From Promethearchaeota archaeon (GTDB lineage: Archaea > Asgardarchaeota > Lokiarchaeia > Sigyniarchaeales > SOKP01), in NCBI GenBank assembly GCA_030606485.1, contig JAUWGH010000006.1, positions 1 to 64,000 on the forward strand: a DNA stretch of 64,000 nucleotides, given 5' to 3'. The notes beneath the pieces were generated by a model, which saw only the letters and a list, made by a program, of their open reading frames with translations, ran no database searches and was not told where the DNA came from. The position numbers and the translations under genes are program-made. Positions 37,236 to 62,052 of the stretch are shown here, piece after piece. Numbering within the stretch: position 1 is the stretch's first letter; every line of letters starts with the position of its first letter.

Positions 37236-39227
37236 TTATTCTCCTTCTTGATCTTCAAATAAACCTAGATTTGGGTCTAGGAATTGATTACTACACATAG
37301 GACAAGCATTATATTTAGAAATCCAATAAGCTACGCATAGATAATGAAATACCGACCCGCAAAATGGACACACAATTATATTTTCTCTCGCGATATTAAT
37401 ATATTTATGGCATACAGTGCATTGGACATTAGAGGTTGAAATTCCCTCCCTTAATCTAATTCGAGAGGATAAAACTTCTTCTAATTTTGACATTTCTTCT
37501 TGATAAAGTCTTTTTTCTCGATTTGATTTTTTTATTTGAGAATTAATCGATTGAATTCTCTCCTTTAATTCATCATCAGATAATTTTTCCGGAAAAAGTG
37601 TTGTAAAACGATAATTCAGTGGAATTTCATGGTCTAATAATCCAATATTTTTTATCGTGCTAAAAAGAATCTCTTCTTTGCCAATAATCTCTTTAAATGA
37701 AATAAAAAGTTTAGAAATTGATAAGTATAGTGCAAATTTCATTTGATTTGTTTTTTCAGTAAAATTTTTTTCCCAATTTTTTATAAGACTGTATGGACTA
37801 ACTCCTTTTTTTCTAATATCTTCAAATATTTTTGTAATCTCTTTTTGGATTTTAGTAGTTTCTACCGTATATTTTCTCAGCATATTTTTAATATTTTCTA
37901 ATTCAGGAAACTCCTGATTTATAGTCTTAGAGGTTTCTTGTTGATAAAAATTCAACATATGATTTAATTTTGCAATTTTATTATCAATAACATCTTTTAC
38001 TTCAGCTTTTACTTTCTCTTCATATATAGATTGAGCGGAATTTTCAAAATTTTCCGTTCTTCTTTGAATTTCTGAATTTATATTATTTATTGTTTTATTT
38101 ATATTTAATGTGATCTCATCGTAAGGCTTTAAATAATTTTCAAATTCTAAAATCCAATCCACAATATCATCTAATAAATTAATTAATTGAAGATTCTTTA
38201 AGCGAAGGTGGATTATACAATCTTGTTCTTCAATCCTTTTTTGATAATAAGTTTCAATTTTTTCAAAAATCTTTAATATCGGTTTTGAAATGAAATTATA
38301 AATATCACTTTGATTTAACTCTTCTAAGATTTTCTTTATTTCACTCTTAGTAATGATCTTTCCGTCATCATAAATTTCTTTCCTTTCTAAAAACAAATTA
38401 AATATAAAATCCCTTAATAATTCAATTAAAAATAAACGTAAATTTTTTTTAATCTCTGCTTTCTCTGTAGAATCCCTATATTCCTCTATTTCATTGATAG
38501 AAAAAATCCCCATTGAATAAAATAAATTAATATATTCATAAATAAGCACGGATTTAAAGATTTTGGACTCTTGAAGGTCAGAAATTATATCATGTAAATA
38601 AAAAACAATATTTTCTTCTCGTCCCTCATTAATAATTGGGACTTCAGCGTGCTGTTCTACGATTTCACATAATGATTTTAATGGCTCCCAAATTTCAAGA
38701 TTTAACGGAAGTTTTTTAAGAATAAAAGAAGTTTTCTTAAGTATAGAGCTTTCAATAAATATATTAATTTGATTATTGAATCTGGGTCTGAACTTTTCCT
38801 TATTAGATTGTACAAAATCAATAAGATTATCGCATTGGTCTCTTGAATACTTAATATTTTTATATATTTTTTCAATTAATTTCTTATTTTTAATTATAAC
38901 TTTTATATTCCTCATATCTAAGAAGAGAATTCTAATCCTCTGTTCAATTCGCATTAATTCACTTAAAATTTCTGATAGAAAATAATATAATTCATTTAAA
39001 TTCCCAACTTCGAAATAATTACTAAAAAAATCTTCTAAATTTATTAAGTATTCAGAAATTTTATTAAAATCTTCTAAATCAAACTTGGACGAAATAAAGT
39101 TTATAATTTCTGATTTCTTTGATTTATTTTTCTCAAAATAAATTAATTGTTTTTTTATTTCTTCAATCTCTACTTTTGTAAATCCTTTTATATCATCAGA
39201 AATAAAACCATTATTACTAAATAACAT
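37236..39227 (-). CDS. Large coiled-coil protein with C-terminal RING/PHD-like zinc finger
   Basis: Most of this 663-residue protein (about 1-590) is helical and coiled coil, without membrane spans. The last 60 residues hold a cross-brace type finger with ligands Cys603, Cys606, Cys620, Cys623, His628, Cys631, Cys642 and Cys645, in the spacing C-x2-C-x13-C-x2-C-x4-H-x2-C-x10-C-x2-C. This C4HC3 order matches PHD and RINGv fingers and also the prokaryotic RING family. Eukaryotic relatives include ubiquitin ligases and membrane-protein adaptors. It lies 39 bases after the proteasome beta-type gene on the same strand and is probably co-transcribed with it. A ligase role is inference; no ubiquitin, E1 or E2 gene is in the window. 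Confidence 0.82.
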   Translation of the reverse strand: MLFSNNGFISDDIKGFTKVEIEEIKKQLIYFEKNKSKKSEIINFISSKFDLEDFNKISEYLINLEDFFSNYFEVGNLNELYYFLSEILSELMRIEQRIRILFLDMRNIKVIIKNKKLIEKIYKNIKYSRDQCDNLIDFVQSNKEKFRPRFNNQINIFIESSILKKTSFILKKLPLNLEIWEPLKSLCEIVEQHAEVPIINEGREENIVFYLHDIISDLQESKIFKSVLIYEYINLFYSMGIFSINEIEEYRDSTEKAEIKKNLRLFLIELLRDFIFNLFLERKEIYDDGKIITKSEIKKILEELNQSDIYNFISKPILKIFEKIETYYQKRIEEQDCIIHLRLKNLQLINLLDDIVDWILEFENYLKPYDEITLNINKTINNINSEIQRRTENFENSAQSIYEEKVKAEVKDVIDNKIAKLNHMLNFYQQETSKTINQEFPELENIKNMLRKYTVETTKIQKEITKIFEDIRKKGVSPYSLIKNWEKNFTEKTNQMKFALYLSISKLFISFKEIIGKEEILFSTIKNIGLLDHEIPLNYRFTTLFPEKLSDDELKERIQSINSQIKKSNREKRLYQEEMSKLEEVLSSRIRLREGISTSNVQCTVCHKYINIARENIIVCPFCGSVFHYLCVAYWISKYNACPMCSNQFLDPNLGLFEDQEGE

Positions 39228-39266
39228 AAAAATAGTCTTTTTATCCTAAAATAATATTAATAAAAT

Positions 39267-39884
39267 CTATTCGCCTAATTCATTTAACTCGAGATATTTC
39301 TCTTTATATCCTGCATCAGTTATTGTTAAAATATCAATACCATTACCTGCCATTGCATCTCTTGCTAATGCAGAACGTATTACTTTTTCTACTAATTTTT
39401 CACCTTTTGCAATTGTCATTTCTGGTATGTATTCCGATTCAAGCATTCCTACCATCATCAGCATACTCGTACCCCCCACTCCGTAGTCATCAGGCATCAA
39501 AGATCCGATCGCATCTAATGTATAAAGCTTTGGTCCATCAATATCTACTCCAGCTATAACAACATTTGTAAATAAGGGAAACATTTTCCGATAATACAGA
39601 TAATTACTAATCATCTTTCCCATACTTTGTGTAGAAATTCTTGAACCAGCTTCGTATTGATACAAATTTGCTCTAGCTTTCATAATTTTTACTAAAATTT
39701 GAAAATCTCCAATTAATCCATATGCAGAAAGGCCAATATTATCGGTTAATGGAAATACCTTTTTAGTTGATTTATTCGTAACAGTATAACCTAATGTAGC
39801 CCGTCGATCATTGCCTAAAACCACTCCTTCTTTGCATTTTATTGCGACCGAAGCCGCTCCTGGAATCATGAATTCCCTGCTCAT
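39267..39884 (-). CDS. psmB: 20S proteasome beta-type subunit lacking the Thr1 nucleophile
   Basis: This 205-residue protein is a clear beta-type subunit: VAIKCKEGVVLGNDRRAT (13-30) aligns with the family start, and ARDAMAGNGIDILTI matches its C-terminal block. Counting from the usual Gly(-1)/Thr1 cut, residue 10 (Ala, in PGAAS) is in the Thr1 position. The partner residues Asp17 (Asp26) and Lys33 (Lys42) are kept, but Ser169 of the D-x-x-S-G motif is Ala (DAMAG). The DNA reads GGA-GCG-GCT-TCG, so this is not a translation slip. It should therefore be inactive and structural or regulatory, as in some archaea with two beta subunits. An active beta would have to lie elsewhere. Confidence 0.9.
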   Translation of the reverse strand: MSREFMIPGAASVAIKCKEGVVLGNDRRATLGYTVTNKSTKKVFPLTDNIGLSAYGLIGDFQILVKIMKARANLYQYEAGSRISTQSMGKMISNYLYYRKMFPLFTNVVIAGVDIDGPKLYTLDAIGSLMPDDYGVGGTSMLMMVGMLESEYIPEMTIAKGEKLVEKVIRSALARDAMAGNGIDILTITDAGYKEKYLELNELGE

Positions 39885-40175: not shown

Positions 40176-40394
40176 TTAGAAATATTTGATTGCTAAAAGC
40201 AAATCATCCTTTGTTACTTTCTTTCTACCTGCATGATTACAGAATGTGATAGCTTGTTTAGTAATAGATGTAGCTGTACTCTCTAAATTTTCAATCAAGA
40301 GATCTACTGCATCTCTCGCAACAATAGTTGCACCTTGTTTTTTCATTAATCTCCTAACTGGACTCCAGGCGAAAGAATGTTTCTTTTTTGCCAT
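40176..40394 (-). CDS. Archaeal histone
   Basis: This 72-residue protein is a single histone fold. The first helix region is SPVRRLMKKQG (11-21), followed by the long helix with ARDAVDLLIENLESTATSIT and the third part NHAGRKKVTKDDLLLAIKYF (53-72), with the RKKVTxDDLxxA signature of archaeal histones. The start has a clean ribosome site, GGAGGA, about ten bases upstream of the ATG. It binds and wraps DNA as dimers or polymers. The N-terminal MAKKKHSFAWS is a short basic tail, shorter than eukaryotic tails. Confidence 0.93.
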   Translation of the reverse strand: MAKKKHSFAWSPVRRLMKKQGATIVARDAVDLLIENLESTATSITKQAITFCNHAGRKKVTKDDLLLAIKYF

Positions 40395-41963: not shown

Positions 41964-43271
41964 ATGAGTTTGGAAATAAAATCTTTAATTTTATTTAATT
42001 ATTCAAAACCTAATACTTATTCTTATGCTGCTTTAATGGGCTCATTGGATTCCTACTCTACTTTTTCTGAAAATATTGAAATAAAAATAATTAACCAAAA
42101 TTTATTTAAATTTTTTAAAAATGAACAAACTTGGAAGAATTATTCCAATTATAAACATATTATTTTATTATATTCACTATTCTCTGAGCAGTTTCTTGGA
42201 TTTTCTGATAAAATATTTAAAATTAAAAAATTATTTAAAGACCATATAGGAAAATCACCTATAATTATTGCTGGTGGTCCTCATCCAAGCGCAAGACCTA
42301 TAGAAGTGTTAAAAGCAGGTGTAGATATTGTCATTCAGGGAGAAGGAGAATATAATTTTCCAAGAATAATAAATTGGATCCATCAAAAAGGTTATTTAGA
42401 TGAATCTTATGATGATTATCGAGGTAAAGGTGGAATATATTATTACTATAATAACAAATTATGTTCAAAAGAAAGTTCGGAACGTTTAAATTTAGACAAT
42501 TACTCATCGATAAGTTTCAAACACAGATTATTTGGTCCAGTAGAAATTTCTCGTGGGTGTCCATTCTGTTGTAAATTTTGTCAATATGGAAATTTCTATA
42601 ATAATATGAAGCATAAATCTATTAAGACCATATTTAAAACTATAGAGAAAGCAGTTGAAGTGAAATATGATAAAATATGGTTTCTTTCTTCAAATTCTTT
42701 TGCCTATGGATCAAAATCTCTAAACCCAAATCCAATGAAGGTGAAAGAATTATTAAGTAAACTTTACAAAATTGAAGGTTTAAATGAGATCTATTTTGGT
42801 ACATTTCCAAGTGAAGTTAGACCTGAATTTGTGACACATGAAATGTTGGACTCTTGTATCCCGTACATTTCAAATAAATATTTTATTATTGGAGCTCAAA
42901 CGGCATCAAATCGATTATTGCAATATATTAACCGAGGTCACACATTTGAAGATGTCTTGAATGCTATAGACATTTTAAAGGAATATGGATTTAATTGTCA
43001 TCTAGATTTTATTTTTGGACTTCCCTCAGAAACTTCAGAAGATATTGATGAAAATATTAATTTTTTCAAATATATTCTGAAACAAAATAATATTAAAATT
43101 CATTCTCATACTTTTATGCCTTTACCTGGTTCTAAATTTGAAAATAAGCCAGCTGGTAAGGTTATTCCTCTTCGACTCCAAAAAATCTTGAGGCAATTAA
43201 TAAGTCAAGGTAAGGCATACGGACAATATCAAACTCAACTAAAAGTAGCACAATTAATCGAAAATCTTTAA
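41964..43271 (+). CDS. Radical SAM protein with N-terminal cobalamin-binding-like domain
   Basis: The N-terminal half of this 435-residue protein contains IIAGGPHPSARPIEVLKAG (about 99-117) and VIQGEGEYNFPRI, typical of the B12-binding-like Rossmann domain of MJ_1487-type proteins. The radical SAM core has RGCPFCCKFCQYG with cluster cysteines Cys199, Cys203 and Cys206 (C-x3-C-x2-C), and later GAQTASNRLLQYINRGHT and LDFIFGLPSET, conserved in B12-type radical SAM enzymes. It is the first of four same-strand genes. The product modified is unknown. The canonical B12-binding DxHxxG was not seen, so the B12 domain may be vestigial. Confidence 0.87.
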   Translation: MSLEIKSLILFNYSKPNTYSYAALMGSLDSYSTFSENIEIKIINQNLFKFFKNEQTWKNYSNYKHIILLYSLFSEQFLGFSDKIFKIKKLFKDHIGKSPIIIAGGPHPSARPIEVLKAGVDIVIQGEGEYNFPRIINWIHQKGYLDESYDDYRGKGGIYYYYNNKLCSKESSERLNLDNYSSISFKHRLFGPVEISRGCPFCCKFCQYGNFYNNMKHKSIKTIFKTIEKAVEVKYDKIWFLSSNSFAYGSKSLNPNPMKVKELLSKLYKIEGLNEIYFGTFPSEVRPEFVTHEMLDSCIPYISNKYFIIGAQTASNRLLQYINRGHTFEDVLNAIDILKEYGFNCHLDFIFGLPSETSEDIDENINFFKYILKQNNIKIHSHTFMPLPGSKFENKPAGKVIPLRLQKILRQLISQGKAYGQYQTQLKVAQLIENL

Positions 43272-48603: not shown

Positions 48604-48644
48604 AAAAAAATTTATTCTTTGTGTTCTTTAATATTTTAGATATA

Positions 48645-49676
48645 ATGATTAATCCTTTCGCAAATTTTTATCGTGTCCCGACATCTCAAGAACTTCTAGA
48701 TATTGCTTTTAGTAGAGCTATGAAAAGTAGTGCGGCAGTATCTAAAAATGCCCCTAAAATATTAAAAGCAAGAAAAAAAGAAATTAAAAGAATTCAAGTC
48801 GCAATCAAAGAAATTATAGATAGAATTTTAAAAATTATTAAGATGGTCCCGATTATCCAGGAAATACCCGAATTCTATCGAGAATTGGCCTCATTAATCG
48901 TTAATACTGATGAATTAAGACTAACTCTAGGAAAATTAAATGGTATATTGCCTATCTTAAGTAAAATTGAAAAAGATTATAAAACTCGAATTAAAAATTC
49001 AGAAATCCCCAAAGAAATTGCGAAATATAGACGAGCAGTATTTGGAAGAATATCTTCAATAATAAACAAACAAAAAAAAAGTTTAAATTATTTAAATGAA
49101 ATTAGAGGAGAATTAAGAAGAATACCCTCTATTGATTATGAAATTCCTTCAATAGTTATTGCCGGGTATCCTAATGTAGGAAAGAGTAGTCTTGTAAGAT
49201 TAATTTCGTCAGGAAAACCCGAAGTTCAACCATATCCTTTCACAACTAAAAAGATAATTATCGGACATCATATAGTAGAAAAAAACTATGATATGACTAA
49301 ACTCCAAATAATTGATACTCCAGGGATCTTGGATAGACCTATGTCAAAAAGAAATAAGATTGAATTGCAAGCAATACTAGCTCTAAACTTGATTTCTGAT
49401 GTTATAATTTTCATATTTGACCCTACTCCTGCTTGCGGATATGATATTGATTGTCAGGTGGATTTATATTATGAAATTTGTGATAATTTCTCCAAAGATG
49501 GCAAAATACCAATTATCTTAGTTTTTAATAAAATGGATCTGGCTAATGAGGAGGAAATTCAATTTTTAAAGAATAAATTAAATTTAAATGAAGATGATTT
49601 TTTTCTAATTAATGCTTTAATAAAGGATGAATTCGTAAATAAATTGATTGAATTCGTAATAAATAAATTGACATAA
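48645..49676 (+). CDS. Nog1-like GTPase (ribosome biogenesis)
   Basis: This 343-residue protein has GTPase motifs GYPNVGKSS (about 173-181; G1), the TT of PFTTKK (G2), DTPG (G3) and NKMD (G4), preceded by a long helical N-terminal domain (1-165). Archaeal Nog1/Obg-type GTPases have this layout and help assemble the large ribosomal subunit. The start MINPFANFYRVPTSQELLD is typical of archaeal Nog1, so I chose the ATG at 48645 and not the frame start at 48621. Confidence 0.9.
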   Translation: MINPFANFYRVPTSQELLDIAFSRAMKSSAAVSKNAPKILKARKKEIKRIQVAIKEIIDRILKIIKMVPIIQEIPEFYRELASLIVNTDELRLTLGKLNGILPILSKIEKDYKTRIKNSEIPKEIAKYRRAVFGRISSIINKQKKSLNYLNEIRGELRRIPSIDYEIPSIVIAGYPNVGKSSLVRLISSGKPEVQPYPFTTKKIIIGHHIVEKNYDMTKLQIIDTPGILDRPMSKRNKIELQAILALNLISDVIIFIFDPTPACGYDIDCQVDLYYEICDNFSKDGKIPIILVFNKMDLANEEEIQFLKNKLNLNEDDFFLINALIKDEFVNKLIEFVINKLT

Positions 49677-53011: not shown

Positions 53012-53429
53012 TATCACGCATAGATCAAACCGAAAGATTAATCTCTTTAAAGCATTGACAGCAAGGAATCCCTATAATAATTTTATTTTTATAAGTTTTT
53101 GATTTATGCATTAATTTTAACAAATTTTCTTTTAATTTTTTCGCAAATTTAGTTTCTTCAAAATAAAACCTCATTAAATCATCTTTATGATTTTCTCCTT
53201 TACAAATAGGACAAATAGAATAAAATTCTAAGAAATTATCACAAATTTTCTTTTCTTCATCAGATAAGGCTTCATAGTCCTGATTAACAGCAAATGTATC
53301 TTCAAATAATATTTCTTGTATTCTTTCAATATCTACTAGCATTTGCTCTCTAATCAAAGTTATAGTGTCAATATCTCCCTCATGATTTTCCTCTGATTCA
53401 AATGGATTCGAAGAAAAATAAGACATATC
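53012..53429. repeat. Gene-sized direct repeat, left copy (418 bp)
   Basis: This stretch matches 57252-57669 in the same orientation, with no gaps and about 26 mismatches by eye (about 94% identity). It covers the small Cys gene from 13 bases after its stop codon to three bases before its start, and both copies end sharply in the same TATC and ACATATC bases. The most conserved part is the 3' half of the gene. It marks the left border of the MFS/GH2 segment. Confidence 0.85.
53025..53426 (-). CDS. Small Cys-rich protein (left copy of a duplicated gene)
   Basis: This 133-residue protein has CPIC (about 71-74) and a later CCQC (about 124-127) that could form one zinc site. The N-terminus is acidic and contains NPFES-type residues; the middle is helical. 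It is nearly the same as the protein at 57265-57666. I chose the ATG at 53424-53426 because the similarity starts here; a longer frame to 53492 adds 22 hydrophobic residues that the other copy lacks. I know no family for it. Confidence 0.72.
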   Translation of the reverse strand: MSYFSSNPFESEENHEGDIDTITLIREQMLVDIERIQEILFEDTFAVNQDYEALSDEEKKICDNFLEFYSICPICKGENHKDDLMRFYFEETKFAKKLKENLLKLMHKSKTYKNKIIIGIPCCQCFKEINLSV

Positions 53430-53938
53430 TATAAATATCCATATATTTTTAAAATATGAACTTATGAAAAACAGGTTATTAATATGAACCATTAAAATTA
53501 AGTAGTTTTTTATTCATATATAAGAAAATGGTCATAAAACATATAAAAGAAACCGAATTTCAAACAAGTTCTGAAATGACGGTCTAATGGGCTTATTTTA
53601 ATATCATCTACACATGTATAGATTTATACATTTTTCAATTTCGAATTATACAGAGAGATAAATCGATTTATACAAAGATATAAACTTGTGAAAAATGATA
53701 AAAGCAAGGTTTAGAAAAGTGCTTGGCTTCGCTTGATTCCAAATGGACAAGTTTAATAGAGAATCTTATACTAAAAAAAAAAATTATTAAAGGAGGTAAA
53801 GCTGGTTCATCCTAATAATATTGAGTTTATATAAACTTTAAACGAATAGTTAAATAGTTCAAAGAAGATAAAATTTTTAAGATCAAAAATATATCTGTCC
53901 AAAAAAAAAATAAATAAAAATATTAAGTGATTAGTATA
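53427..53938. other. Long regulatory spacer before the MFS transporter
   Basis: This 512-base gap has no gene. Apart from the phased repeats listed separately, it has AT-rich DNA, an isolated AAAGGAGGTAAAG run (about 53787-53800) with no frame behind it, and the promoter of the MFS gene. The region may hold remains of the DNA that came with the MFS/GH2 segment. Confidence 0.35.
53614..53674 (+). promoter_or_regulatory. Phased TTATACA repeats and palindrome before the MFS/GH2 pair
   Basis: TTATACA occurs at 53624-53630, 53646-53652 and 53668-53674, exactly 22 bases apart, so all three lie on the same face of the helix. The first forms the perfect palindrome ATGTATA-gatt-TATACAT (53614-53631). 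The set lies about 265 bases before the transporter start, in the only long spacer of this segment. It should bind a sugar-responsive regulator; none is encoded next to it. Confidence 0.5.
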
Positions 53939-57251: not shown

Positions 57252-57669
57252 TATCACGCATAGATCAAACCGAAGGATTAATCTTTTTAAAGCATTGACA
57301 GCAAGGAATCCCTATAATAATTTTATTTTTATAATTTTTTGATTTATGCATTAATTTTAACAAATTTTCTTTTAATTTTTTCGCAAATTCAGTTTCTTCA
57401 AAATAAAACCTCATTAAATCATCTTTATGATTTTCTCCTTTACAAATAGGACAAATAGAATAAAATTCTAAGAAATTATCACATATTTTCTTTTCTTTAT
57501 CAGATAGGTTTTCATAATCCGGACCAACAACATATGTATCATCAAATAATATTGCTTGTATTCTTTCAATATCTGTAATCATTTGTTCTCTAATCAAAGT
57601 TATAGTGTCAATATCTCCCTCATGATTTTCATCTGATTCAAACGGATTTAAAGAAAAATAAGACATATC
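57252..57669. repeat. Gene-sized direct repeat, right copy (418 bp)
   Basis: This is the second copy of the repeat at 53012-53429, in the same orientation and without any gap. It begins 12 bases after the GH2 stop codon and ends three bases before the start of the small Cys gene. The two copies frame 3822 bases that hold only the MFS and GH2 genes and their control region. Confidence 0.85.
57265..57666 (-). CDS. Small Cys-rich protein (right copy of a duplicated gene)
   Basis: This 133-residue protein is the paralogue of the one at 53025-53426, with the same CPIC and CCQC clusters, the same length and an intact frame. Amino-acid changes cluster in the N-terminal half (around positions 30-60), while the Cys-bearing C-terminal half is almost unchanged. 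Both copies being open points to selection on the protein and recent duplication. Function is unknown. Confidence 0.75.
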   Translation of the reverse strand: MSYFSLNPFESDENHEGDIDTITLIREQMITDIERIQAILFDDTYVVGPDYENLSDKEKKICDNFLEFYSICPICKGENHKDDLMRFYFEETEFAKKLKENLLKLMHKSKNYKNKIIIGIPCCQCFKKINPSV

Positions 57670-59814: not shown

Positions 59815-62052
59815 TTAACCATATAAACTTTCTTCTGGACCCACCGTTCTCTTAGCTCTCATATAAGATTTCGTATGTTCATCTGCACGCTTCAAAATTT
59901 TGTCAATAGCTTGTTCAAAATGCTTTTTTTCAATTTTAATAGTTTCGATTTTTTCCTTTTCTTCATTTAATATTTGCTTTTGTAAAACTGCTTCTCTAAT
60001 GGCCAGTAATGTAGCTTCTTCACTTATTGCTTGAACATCTGCACCAGTATAACCATCTAATTTTTCTGCTAATTTATCTATATTTACATTATCATCAATT
60101 GGCTTTTCTTTTAAATGGATTTTAAAGATTTCAATAAGCGCTTCCTTATCCGGTAAATTAATTTGAACATGTCTCCCAAATCTTCCTGCTCTTAATAGAG
60201 CAGGGTCTAACATATCTGGTCTGTTCGTGGCTGCAACTAATACAACGTCCCTTAATTCTTCTAATCCATCCATTTCAGTTAAAAGTTGAGAAATTACTTG
60301 TTCAGATACCTGAGAACCTATATGCATGCCTCTTATACTTGCAATTGCATCGATCTCATCGAAAAATATAATACAAGGAGCTGCCATTCTTGCCTTTCTA
60401 AAGGTTTCTCTAACGGCTTTTTCGCTCTCTCCAACCCATTTTGAAAAAAATTCAGGACCTTTTACGGAAATAAAATTTACTTCACTCTCGTGAGCTAAGG
60501 CTCTTGCTAATAATGTTTTGCCTGTTCCAGGTGGGCCAAATAGTAATATTCCATTTGGTGGTTTTGAATTCATATGCTTATATAGGTTTGGATATTTAAG
60601 TGGCCATTCAATAATCTCTTTTAATTGCTGTTTTGCATCTTCTAATCCGCCAACATCATCCCAGGTTTCTTTAGGCGTAGTTATTAATACTTCCCTTAAT
60701 GCCGATGGTTCAATACTAGTGAGTGCTTGATTAAAATCCTCCATCGTAATCTGAATTTTATTTAAAATCTCTGCTGGTATTGGTTTCTCCATATCTATTT
60801 CAGGTAAAATACGCCTTAAACTTAACATAGCTGATTCTTTAGCTAATGCTTCAATATCAGCTCCTACAAATCCATGGGTTCTATCTGCTAATTCTTCTAA
60901 GTCAACATCCTTATATAAGGGCATTCCTCTTGTATGAATTTGCAAGATCTCATAACGTCCGTCTCTATTTGGAACACCAATAACGATTTCTCTATCAAAC
61001 CTGCCTGGACGCCTTAATGCCTCGTCAATATCATTCACTCTATTTGTTGCTCCAATAACAATTATTTCTCCTCTCGATTTCAAACCATCCATAAGAGATA
61101 ACAATTGAGCAACAACCCTTCTCTCAACTTCTCCAGTAACTTCACCTCTCTTGGGAGCTATAGAATCTAATTCATCAATAAAAATAATCGAAGGAGCATT
61201 TTTTTTCGCGTCTTCAAATATATTTCTCAAATTTTCTTCACTTTGCCCATAAAATTTACTCATTATTTCTGGACCTGAAATAGTTATGAAATGTGCATCT
61301 GTTTCATAAGCAACTGCTCTTGCTAATAATGTTTTACCCGTTCCCGGTGGTCCATGCAAGAGAACTCCTTTTGGCGGAGATATGCCCGCTCTTTTAAATA
61401 ATTCTGGATGTCTCATCGGTAACTCAATCATTTCTCTAATTTTTCTAATCTCTTCATATAACCCTCCGATATCTTCATAAGTTACTCGTAATTTTTCAGC
61501 AGCTTCGATTTCTTCTACCGCCTTTTCTGAAACTATTATTCTAGTCTTAGTATGAATTCTAACTGCCTCAGCTTGAGGAGTAAATTTCGTAATCATAAAA
61601 TCAAATCTTTGTCCCATTGCATAAAAACTAATGATATCTCCTTTTGTAACTACACGATTATCTAATAAATTTGCTAATGCTTTTGAATCCCTTATAACTA
61701 CTGGCCTTCCAATTGAAGCAAACGTAATAGTTCCTGCCAGTTTAGCTTCTATTTTTCTTACAGTAACCCAATCATCAATAGAAGCGCCAAGATTTCGCCT
61801 TAATGAACTGTCTAATCTAATGATACTCGATCCAACATCTACTTGTCTGCCAGGATATAATAATCCAGCTGTTCTTTTGTCTTTATTCTCATTATAAACT
61901 TCAATTACATCTCCTGTTCCTAAATTGTGTTTTCTAGATATCAATGGATCTATACGTAAAATACCACGACCAGAATCTTCTTTTAATGCATCTGCAATCC
62001 TAAGATAATCCTTCTCTTTATTTTTCTTTGATATTGAACTCACAATTTTCAC
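59815..62052 (-). CDS. cdc48: CDC48/VCP-type AAA ATPase with two AAA domains
   Basis: This 745-residue protein unfolds protein substrates. An N domain (1-185, double-psi barrel with [13 protein letters not shown]) is followed by AAA D1, with [15 protein letters not shown] (about 229-243) and [12 protein letters not shown], and AAA D2, with [15 protein letters not shown] (about 502-516) and [10 protein letters not shown]; arginine fingers lie in RRPGRFDR and LRAGRFGR. The protein ends in ESLYG: Leu-Tyr-Gly is the hydrophobic-Tyr-X tail that docks on proteasomes and is also the last three residues of human VCP. The start is GTG at 62050-62052. It is between hsp20 and the Phr-like gene. Confidence 0.95.

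Follow-up and report, generated by a model that had tools for sequence, protein, structure and literature searches.

A proteasome beta subunit without Thr1 and its conserved gene neighbour, a coiled-coil protein with a predicted RING finger, in a family of Lokiarchaeia

How does a proteasome beta-type subunit that has lost its Thr1 nucleophile relate to the coiled-coil, zinc-finger protein that is encoded directly downstream of it? This question is raised by a gene pair in a stretch of 64,000 nucleotides of Promethearchaeota DNA, here called the window. The original prediction had placed the two genes on the same strand and 39 bases apart, and both open reading frames are indeed found in this arrangement on the minus strand, with the following features:

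39267..39884, minus strand: proteasome beta subunit without Thr1, 205 aa (PF00227, 157.8 bits, residues 9-188)
39855..39857, minus strand: codon GCG (Ala10) in the Thr1 position (distinct homologues in the alignment: 74 with Ala, 2 with Ser, 13 with Thr)
39228..39266, minus strand: 39-base gap between the beta stop and the RING start
37236..39227, minus strand: 663-aa helical/coiled-coil protein with a predicted RING finger at the C-terminus (full-length conservation within the order; AlphaFold2 model)
37446..38219, minus strand: long, coiled-coil-like helices, residues 337-594 (DSSP of the AlphaFold2 model)
37293..37421, minus strand: predicted RING finger, C603 to C645, C-x2-C-x13-C-x2-C-x4-H-x2-C-x10-C-x2-C (invariant ligands and W635; PDB matches by profile and fold)
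40176..40394, minus strand: archaeal histone gene upstream of beta (PF00808)

According to the loci read, a histone gene adjoins beta in several other loci of the window's family (f1) as well. By eye, two genes near the pair were recognized as those of a radical SAM protein (41964-43271) and of a GTPase (48621-49676), and a Cdc48-type two-domain AAA ATPase, possibly a proteasome unfoldase, is encoded 20 kb from beta (59815-62052). Also by eye, near-identical short genes (53025-53492 and 57265-57666) lie on either side of transporter and glycoside-hydrolase-like genes, an arrangement that resembles the borders of an inserted cassette.

The beta protein gives a full match to the Pfam Proteasome domain, and the alignment places Gly9 followed by Ala10 where a catalytic beta subunit has its nucleophile, which bears out the claim that Ala (GCG) stands in place of Thr1. 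Asp17 and Lys33 are retained, as had been stated, in the form of Asp26 and Lys42; the Lys33 equivalent is Lys in 93 of 93 loci, and the Asp17 equivalent is Asp in 76 of them, the other 17 having Glu. The Ser169 equivalent is Ala in the window beta, again as claimed, with the refinement that this exchange is a trait of a few members and not of the whole orthologous group (Ser in 53, Thr in 12 and Ala in 6 of 76 distinct orthologues). The same GCG codon is present at this position in G001 and G002, so that it is shared by three genomes of the genus, each assembled separately, and Ala10 is therefore not a sequencing error. Pairwise dN/dS within the genus is about 0.09-0.12 for the beta gene and 0.24-0.33 for the RING gene; purifying selection acts on both.

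Is the absence of Thr1 peculiar to the pair? A search with the beta covered 97 genomes, and orthologues were read from the order, the class and the phylum. All 76 distinct orthologues lack Thr1 (74 Ala, 2 Ser), whereas 13 distinct paralogues keep it. The Thr1-less beta thus is an Asgard-wide orthologous group and no peculiarity of the RING pair. A scan of named genomes found five Candidatus Lokiarchaeota/Lokiarchaeia MAGs with a beta match, at 72-96% beta identity. Outside the window's family, beta is accompanied by, for example, genes for a Nog1-like GTPase, an RNA 3'-cyclase-like protein and a radical SAM protein (names by eye); genes of the radical SAM and GTPase kinds are retained near the pair in the window, as listed above. 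Several genomes of the phylum are without a close orthologue, and three of these have other Thr1-less betas. Two divergent Thr1-less betas, L182:1498-2127 (G085) and L177:1414-2085 (G093), have the N-termini GGTIAAIAGKDFV and GLTIGLRGKDFV, which resemble those of eukaryotic non-catalytic betas, and their placement in the tree is unstable. The two orthologues with Ser at the Thr1 position stem from genus g2 (L012, L015), and in a single MAG (G024, L020:82-705) an in-frame TAA splits the silent beta gene.

In the window's own genome (G000; 3.75 Mb, 13 contigs), proteasome subunits are encoded by five genes, two for alphas and three for betas. The search for a second, Thr1-bearing beta, which had been suggested as a check, yielded two, and the third beta is the window gene. 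As the cell also has these two Thr1 betas and two alphas, the silent beta is likely a member of mixed beta rings, in which it would most likely fill structural positions next to the two Thr1-bearing betas. Directly beside one of the latter, on the opposite strand, lies a JAMM-like gene with an HSHP motif (L153:5286-6425, contig C5).

The best PDB match of the window beta is 6z46_H (E 1.6e-38), which comes from a Sulfolobus acidocaldarius beta that we take to be Saci0662; in a tree, this closest solved sequence falls together with the Thr1-less betas of Asgard archaea (85/83). Among human betas, the non-catalytic beta3 and beta6 outscore the active ones against the window beta, and in a first tree, in which residues 1 and 2 of the 6z46 chain had been guessed (later trees omit them), beta3/beta6 join the Asgard silent group with a support of 98/99. 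This join is no longer resolved when human sequences are added, the placement shifts again with two further Asgard Thr1-less betas, and the grouping collapses when active-site columns are dropped. The yeast and human beta sequences in these trees were compared with PDB chains, with yeast beta1 and beta4 not being among the 60 chains listed. Because AU tests do not reject a single origin of all eukaryotic betas, and because the grouping is unstable to sequences and columns, we do not claim that eukaryotic beta3/beta6 (and beta4) derive from the Asgard silent group; a link between the Asgard silent betas and the eukaryotic non-catalytic ones is a lead only.

The second protein of the pair was searched in the same 97 genomes, and its homologues span the full or most of the length in the four families of the order. 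A long coiled coil and a C4HC3 finger from Cys603 to Cys645 had been predicted, and both are borne out: the ligands are C603, C606, C620, C623, H628, C631, C642 and C645, and all eight are invariant together with W635 in 41 homologues. These conserved ligands and the match of the model agree with the eight-ligand cross-brace of a RING finger, the ligand order being C4HC3 and not the canonical C3HC4 or C3H2C3. The C4HC3 order also occurs in RINGv and Nse1-type fingers, and the Nse1 complex 7dg2 is among the listed fold matches of the finger. AlphaFold2 modelled the whole protein with a pLDDT of 81.8 and a pTM of 0.60 and the finger alone with a pLDDT of 79.9; in the fold search, both models match RING domains with a probability value of about 1.00, and all 50 matches listed for the finger alone are RING-type domains or complexes that contain one, with neither a PHD finger nor a zinc ribbon among them. 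A profile search of the PDB with the finger likewise ranks RING E3s first. Of the RING, RINGv or PHD-like character that had been considered, profile and fold thus point to RING and reject PHD; nor does the structure model bring up a simple zinc ribbon, which had been named as a possible refutation. According to these models, the finger is a true RING, with the RING fold firmly predicted.

The E2-binding positions Val605, Trp635 and Pro643 are kept, the Trp being invariant and the Pro present in at least 90%. No linchpin Arg/Lys follows the last Cys; this position is Ser646 in the window and Q/N/G/H/M/S elsewhere. For the helical body (residues 18-594), the fold search gave no significant match (best E 0.045), and the weak hits that it did give, to the MUN domain of Munc13 and to various helical proteins, were left out of account. 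Many f1 genomes also encode short proteins of about 100-140 aa (e.g. L055:2276-2689), the finger of which is about 40-60% identical to that of the RING protein, and some of these bear an N-terminal zinc ribbon.

How well is the pair itself conserved? In family f1, the beta and RING genes are adjacent in 50 of the 51 listed genomes that have both, and these belong to eight genera. Of the 50 adjacent pairs, 49 have both genes on one strand, with a median gap of 124 bases and a range of 38-43 bases in the window's genus, and the pair stays together whereas the genes that follow RING differ from locus to locus; among f1 genomes with the adjacent pair, beta identity outside the genus is 59-73%. Among these 50 pairs, that of G006 has a gap of 1.6 kb and that of G020 is divergent; the one non-adjacent case is G045, in which the two genes are on different contigs. 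In contrast, the remaining families of the order (f2-f4) have both genes, but apart, with 0 of 12 being adjacent. Because of this difference, the pair is a real, conserved and lineage-specific unit, and the silent beta does not generally come with it. Conservation in other Asgard genomes, for which a test had been suggested, holds for the eight f1 genera and fails for f2-f4. Our literature search found no published description of such a beta-RING pair.

A ubiquitin context comes from the neighbourhood of the pair in other genera. In seven genomes of three genera (G007 and G015 in g4; G008, G016, G021 and G026 in g5; G029 in g3), the RING gene has an E1 gene at a distance of 1.8-4.2 kb. In the g4 and g5 loci that were read, with Pfam support in L137, beta and RING are followed by a coiled-coil gene on the opposite strand and then by genes for a ubiquitin-like protein (Ubl), E1, E2 and JAMM, in this order; in G029, a JAMM match adjoins E1. 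By chance, such a placement within 5 kb would be expected in about 0.3% per independent event, and a single event may lie behind all three genera. In most other f1 genera the E1 of this cluster lies elsewhere, and it is absent from the window's own genus, which is without the Ubl-E1-E2-JAMM cluster. Ubiquitin, E1, E2, JAMM and RING genes form one block in genomes of g3, g4 and g5 but not in the window's genus. The E1 that this genus does have is a different one of 534 aa; it also has a ubiquitin that ends in GGI and an E2 that carries the catalytic Cys motif. The linked Ubl proteins (L137:5887-6258, L139:11778-12140, L136:5399-5809) have a long acidic N-terminal extension and C-termini of the types ..STAG, ..STAGI or ..STAGKC without di-glycine. 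As the Ubl-E1-E2-JAMM cluster is linked in three genera, it supports a ubiquitin-proteasome role for the pair. The original view of an inactive subunit and a finger protein as a proteasome variant is partly supported: it gains this role, and it loses the notion of a beta that is made as a partner for the finger protein, since beta is Asgard-wide and separate from the RING gene outside f1.

We tentatively favour the explanation that a silent structural beta is co-expressed with a lineage-specific, E3-like RING factor, although we would not be surprised to see it replaced. In family f1 the two genes would act as one unit that is probably co-transcribed; the silent subunit of the core would therefore be made together with the RING factor, whereby ubiquitylation would be matched to the proteasome. 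The RING protein would most likely be an E3-like factor or an adaptor of the archaeal ubiquitin pathway, with the RING binding E2 and the helical body binding the substrate or the proteasome. The pair may in this way connect the core of the proteasome with a ubiquitin step of eukaryote-like type; the conserved adjacency as such suggests coupled expression only. Counted against this explanation are the missing adjacency elsewhere in the order (0/12), the lack of a Ubl cluster in the window's own genus, the missing linchpin Arg/Lys, and the helical body without a significant fold match.

How else could these data be read? It is quite conceivable, if on the whole doubtful, that the two genes are mere neighbours in one family, i.e. 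that an ordinary structural beta and an independent E3 or scaffold RING protein are held together by inherited gene order. The separation of the genes in f2-f4, the different, Asgard-wide neighbourhood of beta elsewhere and the histone gene that is also conserved near beta agree with this, but the pair has been kept in eight genera in spite of variable genes downstream, nearly always on one strand and with mostly small gaps, and the ubiquitin genes that are separately linked in three genera also speak against it. Alternatively, the RING protein could be an assembly or gating adaptor for rings with the silent beta and its RING a non-ligase binding module. Such a role would suit the absent linchpin, the long helical body and the persistence of the protein in the window's genus without a linked Ubl cluster; it is unlikely in view of the conserved E2-facing hydrophobic, Trp and Pro positions, the E1-E2 genes linked in three genera, and the complete E1-E2-ubiquitin set of the window's own genome. 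A bolder extension of the favoured co-expression, in which the silent beta would be a 20S docking position for a dedicated RING factor in this Lokiarchaeal family, and ubiquitylation or ubiquitin reading would take place at the proteolytic core and not at a separate regulatory cap, appears decidedly improbable to us.

That the finger is of the PHD type or a zinc ribbon, serving histone or nucleic acid binding with no tie to ubiquitin, might be argued from the C4HC3 ligand order, which PHD fingers share, from a weak Pfam PHD match in 35 of 35 fingers, and from the upstream histone gene; the RING-type fold matches and the leading RING E3s in the profile search rule such an identity out as far as these searches go, and we give it very little credence. 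Hardly worth considering is an artefact, be it a sequencing error in the Thr codon or a decayed gene: nothing in the window was found in its favour, and the Ala in nearly all orthologues, the shared GCG codon and the low dN/dS refute it.

In eukaryotes, only three of the seven beta subunits are active. The Asgard-wide group of Thr1-less betas implies that a division of labour within the beta ring is widespread, too, among those archaea that are the closest known relatives of eukaryotes. A ubiquitin-to-proteasome connection is so far poorly established in archaea, and the conserved RING pair, which is linked to ubiquitin genes in some genera, is a testable candidate for it.

Inactive or conditionally silent archaeal betas are already known or have been proposed (PMC4569737, PMC5753285). 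In the two-beta 20S of S. acidocaldarius (Saci0613/0662/0909; PDB 6z46), Saci0662 and alpha form a particle that is inactive until Saci0909 joins, which resembles the situation proposed here in that one beta gives an inactive particle without a second one; in contrast to the Ala or Ser of the Asgard group, both Sulfolobus betas are reported with the equivalent Thr, and the available part of that report describes no RING gene partner (PMC4569737). The hypothetical MEROPS scheme of an expanded Lokiarchaeal proteasome, with colours for active and inactive betas, is similar in that alpha and beta genes are more numerous than in other archaea, and its accessible text describes neither a RING partner nor a phylum-wide survey of Thr1 (PMC5753285). 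The ubiquitin operon of Caldiarchaeum subterraneum with Rpn11 likewise unites ubiquitin, E1, E2, JAMM and RING genes (PMC5654768, PMC6043591). In reconstitution, the E2-facing Ile and Trp of its RING matter and the linchpin R69 is functionally important (PMC5654768); in an alignment by eye, the former positions correspond to Val605/Trp635. The linchpin position is Ser in the window protein. The Caldiarchaeum RING is small, whereas the protein described here is a coiled-coil RING of 663 aa, and, unlike in Caldiarchaeum, the linked block includes a beta gene and a Ubl without a C-terminal di-glycine. With the eukaryotic non-catalytic betas (beta3, beta4, beta6, beta7), the silent subunit shares a beta fold without an active Thr1. 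The pair is a variant within the known archaeal ubiquitin-proteasome world.
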